Virus record (IMG/VR): IMGVR_UViG_3300028423_001286
Span: 1 to 20,978 of that record
Length of the DNA: 20,978 bases
Source of the DNA: a virus
Reading direction: 5' to 3' (one strand)
Shown: in pieces, positions 3 through 1,770 of the stretch
How positions within the stretch are numbered: position 1 is the stretch's first letter
Layout of the letters: the number at the start of each line of letters is the position of its first letter
The notes under the pieces: generated by a model
What the model saw: the letters and a program-made list of their open reading frames with translations, nothing else
Told to the model about the DNA's origin: nothing
Database searches by the model: none
Made by a program: the position numbers and the translations under genes

Positions 3-86
3 TGGCTCGCCAGCCTCACGCGCATCGAGCGCCGGCGGAAGCGCCTGGCCGAGTACCGGCCGAGGAAGCGGAGGAGCAAGGCATGA
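3..86 (+). CDS. C-terminal end of an unidentified basic protein (5' end outside window)
   Basis: Reading frame 3 is open from the first bases to a TGA at 84-86 and encodes 27 residues, very rich in Arg and Lys and ending RPRKRRSKA. Almost every codon ends in G or C, like the confirmed genes here, which supports real coding. The stop overlaps the next start in an ATGA at 83-86, so the two genes are probably translationally coupled in one operon leading to the integrase. Only the tail is visible, so no function can be assigned. A basic tail would suit nucleic-acid binding, but that is a guess. Confidence 0.6.
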   Translation, partial: WLASLTRIERRRKRLAEYRPRKRRSKA

Positions 87-406
87 GCGATCGCATCGGG
101 ACGGATCGGCTGGAGACCCTGCGGGCGTGCGCCTGGCACTGTGACCGCACCGGCGATCCCGTGCACTTCTACCGGGGCGAGCTGCTGAGTCTCGTCAACG
201 GCTACGGCCCCGACGCCCTGATGCGCGGCGCGAAGCGGTTCGTACAGTGCGCCGGCCGCGGCTCCACCGCCACCATGCAGCGCCAGTTCTTCCTGAGCTA
301 CCACGAGGCGACTCAGGTGATCGACCGCCTGATCGAGGACGGGGTGCTGTCTCCGCGAGCCGAGGACGGCTCCTGGACAGTCCGAACGGACGACGTGGAG
401 GGCTGA
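83..406 (+). CDS. Small protein with FtsK-gamma-like winged-helix domain
   Basis: A 107-residue protein. I chose the ATG at 83 because a GAGGAG lies 6 nt upstream and the start overlaps the upstream stop; the frame is open further left but without a credible site. Residues about 48-95 resemble the gamma domain of FtsK/SpoIIIE translocases: a conserved Ser before an MQRQF block, then a Tyr, an Ala and an xIDRLIEDGV helix. The E. coli FtsK gamma domain, recalled from memory, has VQRQF, a Tyr and an IIEQMEAQGI helix at the same spacing. FtsK gamma reads KOPS DNA and contacts XerD. Here there is no motor domain, only about 45 residues before the winged helix. Its place two genes before a tyrosine integrase suggests a DNA-binding accessory or regulatory role in integration or excision, which is inference. 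Confidence 0.7.
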   Translation: MSDRIGTDRLETLRACAWHCDRTGDPVHFYRGELLSLVNGYGPDALMRGAKRFVQCAGRGSTATMQRQFFLSYHEATQVIDRLIEDGVLSPRAEDGSWTVRTDDVEG

Positions 407-407
407 C

Positions 408-623
408 GTGGTCGGCGCGATCCTCACGAAGGCGGAGCTCCAGGAGCTCACCGGCGCCCGGCAGAGGGCCAAGGTGATCCGCGTCCTCGTGGAGAACGAC
501 ATCCGCTTCGTAAAGGCCGCCGACGGATGGCCGCGGGTCCACTCGGATGCCCTGACCGGTCACAACGTGGTATCCCTGTCCGCCCGCCGGAGCCGTGAGC
601 CGAACCTCGATGCCTTCGCGTGA
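408..623 (+). CDS. DUF4224 domain protein, candidate integrase accessory
   Basis: A 71-residue protein starting at a GTG (408), preceded by GGAGGG at 397-402 inside the end of the upstream gene. The N-terminal part (residues 5-42) has the DUF4224 pattern: an LTKAELQELTG helix, a basic helix, a short sheet with the I-R-F core, and a D-G-W-P turn. DUF4224 proteins are small phage proteins commonly found just before tyrosine integrases. Their biochemical role is not settled; an excisionase or integrase-regulating role is often suspected from context. The last residues overlap the integrase start at 610, so the two are probably co-translated. The remaining 25 residues look unstructured. Confidence 0.8.
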   Translation: MVGAILTKAELQELTGARQRAKVIRVLVENDIRFVKAADGWPRVHSDALTGHNVVSLSARRSREPNLDAFA

Positions 624-1596
624 GCCCCACTGGCCGCCCCGCTGGACGCGGAAGCACGGCGCGATCTACTTCGTCGTCCCGAAGGACGAGCGCAACCGCT
701 GGGACGGCCGCTCGTGGTTCCGCCTCGGCGGCACCGAGGTAGAGGCCTGGCGCGAGTGGTTTGCGCGCACTGACGCGCCCGAGGGCGCCCCGCCGACCAT
801 CTCCGCGGCGATCCTCCGCTATCGCGCCGAGGTCCTGCCCGGCCTGAAGCCCTCCACGCAGCGCCAGTACAGCGCCCTCCTCACGAAGATCGACGGCGGC
901 TTCGGACACATGCGCCCGCGAGACCTGAAGCCGGCGATGATCTACCAGGCCCGGGGCCGGATGAAGCCCGTCCAGGGGAACCGCATGGTGGCGGTCCTCT
1001 CGGCGTTGATGACCCGCTGCATCGAATGGGGCGCCCTGGACCGGAACCCCTGCCGAGAGGTCCGCAGGACGAAGGAGGAGCCCCGGGACCGCTACGTCGG
1101 CGACGAGGAGCTGCAGGCCTTCCTCCGGCGCTCGACACCCCTGATCCGCGCCTGGGTGCGCCTGAAGCAGGCCACGGGCCTCCGGCAGGGCCAGATGCTC
1201 GCGCTCGACGAGTTAGACTGGAACGACGCCACGGGCGAGCTGACGGTGCCCGGGGCCAAGCGCGGGTTCGACGCGATCTACCACGGCGGCGACCTGCGTG
1301 GCGCCGTGGAGGCTGCCCTGGCGCTACCCCGGCCCCGGACCGGCCCCATCTTCCGCAACCGAGCCGGAGAGCGGTACAGCGGCGACGGATTCCGCTCCCT
1401 GTGGCAGTACGCCATGGCGATGCACGTCGAGGCCGGCGGCGTCAGGTTCACGGAGCACGACATCCGCGCGAAGGTCGCCAGCGACTCGGCCGACGACCTC
1501 GAGGCACAGGCCCGCATGGGCCACCGGTCGCTCGCGACGACCCGGCGGGTTTACCGCAGGCGGCCGAAGCGGGTCGAGGCTGCCGGCGCTGCATGA
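610..1596 (+). CDS. int: Phage tyrosine recombinase (integrase)
   Basis: A 328-residue integrase that would recombine the phage attP with the host attB. From the ATG at 610 the layout is: an N-terminal beta-rich arm-binding part (about 10-50), a core-binding helical domain (about 62-145) and a C-terminal catalytic domain. The catalytic set is present: Arg192 in ATGLRQGQ, a probable Lys217 in the beta hairpin, His283 and Arg286 in EHDIR, His305 in MGHRS, and the nucleophile Tyr315 in RRVYR. A GTG at 595 is also in frame, but the ATG gives a more typical start and neither has a strong ribosome site. The start overlaps the DUF4224 gene by 14 nt. The gene ends 129 nt before the tRNA-derived attachment core, the usual arrangement for a phage that integrates in a tRNA. 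Confidence 0.95.
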   Translation: MPSREPHWPPRWTRKHGAIYFVVPKDERNRWDGRSWFRLGGTEVEAWREWFARTDAPEGAPPTISAAILRYRAEVLPGLKPSTQRQYSALLTKIDGGFGHMRPRDLKPAMIYQARGRMKPVQGNRMVAVLSALMTRCIEWGALDRNPCREVRRTKEEPRDRYVGDEELQAFLRRSTPLIRAWVRLKQATGLRQGQMLALDELDWNDATGELTVPGAKRGFDAIYHGGDLRGAVEAALALPRPRTGPIFRNRAGERYSGDGFRSLWQYAMAMHVEAGGVRFTEHDIRAKVASDSADDLEAQARMGHRSLATTRRVYRRRPKRVEAAGAA

Positions 1597-1725: not shown

Positions 1726-1770
1726 CTGTTAATCAGCGGGTCGCTGGTTCGAGCCCAGCAGGCGGAGCCA
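1726..1770 (+). other. 3' half of tRNA-Asn(GTT), attP core identity segment
   Basis: The segment reads as tRNA positions 32-76. It has an anticodon loop CTGTTAA with GTT at 1728-1730, a stem strand TCAGC (1733-1737), a 5-nt variable loop, a perfect T arm (GCTGG 1743-1747, loop TTCGAGC, CCAGC 1755-1759), an acceptor strand AGGCGGA (1760-1766), discriminator G and CCA (1768-1770). The bases left of the loop do not pair with TCAGC beyond two positions, and no TCCGCCT acceptor strand occurs upstream, so the tRNA is not complete. This is what an attP carrying the 3' part of its target tRNA looks like, since integration would rebuild an intact host tRNA. Strand exchange is probably in or near the anticodon loop. 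Confidence 0.88.

Follow-up and report, generated by a model that had tools for sequence, protein, structure and literature searches.

What might a winged helix of the FtsK gamma type be doing, by itself, just ahead of the integration genes of a phage? This question is raised by a short ORF near one end of a 20,978-base virus record (hereafter the window, with a G+C content of 71%), in which there are no terminal repeats and no matches to defence-system models. The minus strand of the window carries a packaging, head, and tail gene block typical of tailed phages, and the plus strand between positions 3 and 1596 holds a short operon, comprising the end of a gene for a basic protein, the gamma ORF, a DUF4224 gene, and a tyrosine integrase gene (Table 1). 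As was originally predicted, the gamma gene thus lies two genes before int. Here, the start codon of the gamma ORF and the stop codon of the preceding gene overlap as ATGA (positions 83-86), only 1 nt separates the gamma ORF from the DUF4224 gene, and the DUF4224 gene in turn overlaps int. From the gene overlaps, we infer that the gamma, DUF4224, and integrase genes are co-transcribed, and the tight packing of gamma with xis and int would suggest at least a joint expression. Moreover, the G+C content of the gamma ORF by codon position (0.68/0.50/0.90) is that of the other phage genes, and because of this resemblance to its neighbours, we regard the ORF as a real gene.

Table 1. Features of the window that bear on the gamma gene and its surroundings.
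Feature	Position	Strand	Basis or remark
Preceding gene, 3' end	3-86	+	Basic C-terminus RKRLAEYRPRKRRSKA; gene cut by the contig end; translation and codon-position G+C
FtsK-gamma-like stand-alone winged-helix protein, 107 aa	83-406	+	PF09397; PDB sequence and fold matches
Gamma domain, residues 44-97	212-373	+	Recognition helix at about residues 73-85
DUF4224 protein, PHROG excisionase family	408-623	+	PF13986, 50.1 bits; phrog_1266 excisionase, E 3.4e-12
Tyrosine integrase	610-1596	+	phrog_1 integrase, E 1.7e-35; ORF opens at 595, likely start ATG at 610
Four TGTCTAA repeats	1609-1835	1609+, 1663-, 1810+, 1829+	Flank the attP core
attP core	1726-1770	+	Same sequence as the 3' end of a gammaproteobacterial tRNA-Asn gene
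Packaging, head, and tail block		-	Small and large terminase, portal, prohead protease, capsid, tape measure, tip protein J-like

That ORF 83-406 encodes a winged helix of the FtsK gamma type, as the original prediction had it, is confirmed by several searches. With Pfam, residues 44-97 match FtsK_gamma (PF09397) at an E-value of 2.2e-9 and 37.3 bits, which is above the curated cut-off of 30.6, and the only other match to the 107-aa protein is CtsR_C (E 0.06). Among PDB sequences, the top match is likewise an FtsK gamma domain (E 0.002). An independent profile, for which 16 other phage gamma domains were used but not that of the window, gave the window ORF 50.6 bits (E 4.5e-14), with the next best of 6,101 ORFs at 9.3 bits. 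The Pfam model also gives 22.6 bits to one generic winged helix, a MarR-type protein that came up as the second gamma match in one genome and was discarded, so that the distance from background is genuine though not very large. Our comparison also agrees with the gap-free alignment to the E. coli FtsK gamma domain that had been proposed, including the shared QRQF, Tyr, and Ala. An AlphaFold2 model of the 107-aa protein, guided by an alignment of FtsK gamma domains, is confident at about residues 50 to 100, and its top 13 Foldseek hits are all FtsK gamma domains, 12 from P. aeruginosa (ranks 1-9 and 11-13) and one from E. coli, with MarR-type proteins ranking below FtsK gamma. Superposition of the model with P. 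aeruginosa FtsK gamma gave an rmsd of about 0.7-1.3 Å for 55-59 residues (0.7-0.9 Å at best). Folding from the single sequence was of low confidence and uninformative, and the gamma assignment is carried by the sequence evidence. The absence of a motor domain also holds for this ORF, as Pfam finds only the gamma domain, preceded in the protein by a short helical N-terminal extension, and the gene upstream ends in another frame.

While the fold had thus been correctly recognised, the functional part of the original prediction is weakened by what is seen in the recognition helix. FtsK of E. coli reads KOPS through N1296, R1300, and E1303, and replacing all three together with alanine abolishes recognition in both E. 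coli and Vibrio (PMC2533119). At the aligned positions, the window protein has His74, Gln78, and Asp81 in place of this N/R/E triad. Among 26 distinct phage gamma domains, collected with a search pattern in which the first triad position was restricted to N, H, or A and the other two were left unconstrained, the Asn is found in 26, the Arg in 21, and the Glu in 25. KOPS itself is not enriched in the window, which is a fragment of a genome, with 4 matches against 4.5 (4.47) expected; one of these lies on the minus strand at 1853-1860, 18 bases after the final repeat around attP. As regards KOPS, the sequence therefore contradicts the earlier interpretation. With the KOPS-reading residues lost, the window protein would most likely bind some other DNA sequence.

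Turning to the proposed link with XerD, the residues through which FtsK contacts this recombinase are Q1288, R1289, R1292, I1293, G1294, and N1296, of which R1289 matters most (PMC5052618). The window protein keeps the first two (Gln66 and Arg67), but R1292 is changed to Phe, G1294 to Ser, and N1296 to His, and the window contains no dif-like XerD half-site, which leaves the Xer part of the original prediction weak. It might nonetheless be imagined that the protein binds host XerD, or an Xer-like surface, in trans, and so stimulates or blocks dimer resolution, or competes with host FtsK gamma. The retained pair does include the Arg that forms the key salt bridge to XerD E184 (PMC5052618), and fusing a gamma peptide of nine residues to XerC is enough for weak activation. 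However, the kept Gln and Arg are weak evidence, as they are near-universal in all gamma domains, and because both were fixed in our search pattern, their conservation among the phage gamma domains is uninformative. The altered residues are also XerD contacts, activation in the studies consulted required FtsK itself or a fused gamma domain, and the phage integrase uses a tRNA-Asn attP and lacks a sequence match to any solved recombinase. Taken together with the missing dif-like site, we consider such mimicry unlikely.

Just downstream of int, the 45-base attP core has an exact match in 88 bacterial stretches, most of them labelled Pseudomonadales, Alcanivorax/Alloalcanivorax, or Gammaproteobacteria. 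Since tail genes lie immediately beyond the core, the layout of the record would point to an intact attP. TGTCTAA occurs four times in the window against 0.16 expected, and as all four copies surround the core, these are probably arm-type sites of the integrase. A near-perfect inverted repeat (1776-1811; 15-nt arms, 93% complementary, 6-nt loop) sits between the core and the third TGTCTAA, and may be a terminator or an attP structure.

Given this neighbourhood, a role in directing integration or excision had originally been suggested, along with a survey of how often gamma genes adjoin DUF4224 and int. Single-sequence queries gave no close relatives of either int or the DUF4224 protein, and the IMG/VR integrase relatives were retrieved with an alignment of three integrases. 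In total, 73 related integrase loci (67 from IMG/VR and 6 from GenBank) were scanned up to about 3 kb upstream. None of the 73 has a gamma ORF beside the integrase, though the same profile detects the one in the window, and so the link between gamma and integration is not conserved. A conserved role of this kind is thus unsupported, and a role in integration has this one operon as its sole basis. That a free gamma protein, having acquired another DNA target (perhaps sites at attP), might set the direction of the phage's own tyrosine integrase seems to us quite improbable.

The survey fits a cargo reading, in which the slot before xis-int would take exchangeable accessory genes and gamma would have its effect on the host or in phage replication, with no part in integration. 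Consistent with this, the slot before the xis-like gene in the related loci is occupied by ORFs of widely varying length, another stand-alone gamma ORF (L128) is found in a tail gene cluster, and PHROGs places FtsK-like families in the moron/host takeover category. Against it, there is the tight packing of gamma with xis and int, through the ATGA overlap and the 1-nt gap. We view such cargo as a reasonable possibility, and the next best after a gamma-derived accessory protein, which we tentatively prefer as the best-supported mechanism, though we would put it at somewhat short of an even chance.

According to this preferred mechanism, the gamma-type winged helix and its short helical N-terminal extension would form a small DNA-binding protein that neither loads on KOPS (GGGNAGGG) nor activates XerD. 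Instead, it would bind a different DNA sequence of its own, probably within the phage's genome, and would serve as an accessory or regulatory factor of the early or lysogeny operon. The divergence of the protein can be viewed in this light, since a long branch is to be expected after a change of target. Indeed, no branch among 35 gamma domains is longer than that of the window copy (2.31 changes per column), which is unplaced in the tree. No close homologues of the 107-aa protein were found in viral or genome contig collections, nor in 390 genomes from the order to which the host likely belongs. Counting against the preferred mechanism are the failed search for homologues that might reveal whether the altered recognition residues are conserved, the low-confidence single-sequence fold, and the KOPS match near the attP repeats (1853-1860). 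A short pattern taken from the diverged recognition helix gave no matches, and a longer one returned only a multidomain giant protein and two known gamma-terminase loci. A family-wide scan of 369 Gammaproteobacteria found mainly host FtsK and revealed little on free copies. A direct copy of host ftsK is not favoured as the origin, as host FtsK gamma domains score 91-104 bits as compared with 37 for the window copy.

Alternatively, the very long branch and the lost base-contact residues might mean that the winged helix is purely a protein-protein module, whether partner-binding or structural, or else a functionless copy in decay. Yet, the reading frame is intact, its codon-position G+C follows that of the other phage genes, and the domain core is retained, which makes this explanation rather improbable, and we return to the DNA-binding accessory protein as the preferred reading. 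If gamma did act with the phage integrase, this would be, to our knowledge, the first gamma domain serving a non-Xer recombinase, but the more modest outcome is the most likely. Phage gamma domains occur in many settings, and among them the window copy offers a small testable case, in that it has an intact frame, a well-defined attP, and an altered recognition helix.

With regard to known systems, the winged helix of FtsK gamma (PF09397; 2ve8, 2ve9, and 2j5p) is the closest counterpart, sharing with the window copy a gap-free alignment, the QRQF, Tyr, and Ala residues, and the Q1288 and R1289 equivalents. In contrast, the window copy is without a motor, has the H/Q/D triad and changes at R1292, G1294, and N1296, and bears its own short N-terminal extension. 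DUF4224 excisionase-like and tyrosine integrase modules have the same xis-int pair and gene order as the window, but those in the 73 related loci are without an adjacent gamma gene.

Single FtsK_gamma-like ORFs in phages have already been published, with their role stated to be unknown (PMC8190038). Like the window, phages Sam46 and Sam112 (PMC8190038) carry a gamma domain without a motor, though theirs is part of a small-terminase fusion in which the DNA-binding residues are preserved, whereas that of the window is free, located by int, and has lost the triad. We noticed a second case of fusion between gamma and small terminase (phrog_57) in two IMG/VR contigs (L135:1565-2458 and L140:3719-4612). 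The free gamma ORF among lambda-like tail assembly genes (L128:2061-2423) is of the E. coli type with an intact KOPS triad. Gamma is also found within a giant polyvalent protein (L209:3001-3144 and L103:4001-4144), where R1300 is replaced by Ala, and which is of the LPD38 type on a Comamonas plasmid. A GenBank entry named 'Acinetobacter phage MD-2021a' (L003) has ordinary chromosomal genes (ftsK, minCDE, aat, and trxB), and for this reason holds host DNA or is mislabelled.

Phage gamma domains sit mostly within other proteins, and of 28 virus records with a gamma domain, 19 contain RdgC, mostly as an RdgC-gamma fusion. Such fusions, for which a literature search gave no paper, recur in phages and non-mobilizable plasmids and are mostly triad-intact (L002:3978-5198, L101:2879-4195, L100:3957-5195, and L110-L131). 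In plasmid p2463-1 of P. juntendi, an annotated 57-aa 'DNA translocase FtsK' corresponds to the end of a 412-aa ORF (L100:3957-5195), apparently RdgC plus gamma, and hence its annotation begins too late. The fusions of Pseudomonas phage PA8, Aeromonas plasmid pHm21, and P. juntendi p2463-1 resemble the window in being gamma domains of phages or plasmids, and they show the highest identity to the window copy, at 46% (L110) and 45% (P. juntendi). Here, however, gamma is the C-terminal domain of a recombination protein and the KOPS triad is intact, whereas the window copy is free and its triad is lost. Set beside these systems, the window gene adds another, strongly diverged example of a phage gamma domain, distinguished by its location ahead of xis-int and by having lost the KOPS triad.
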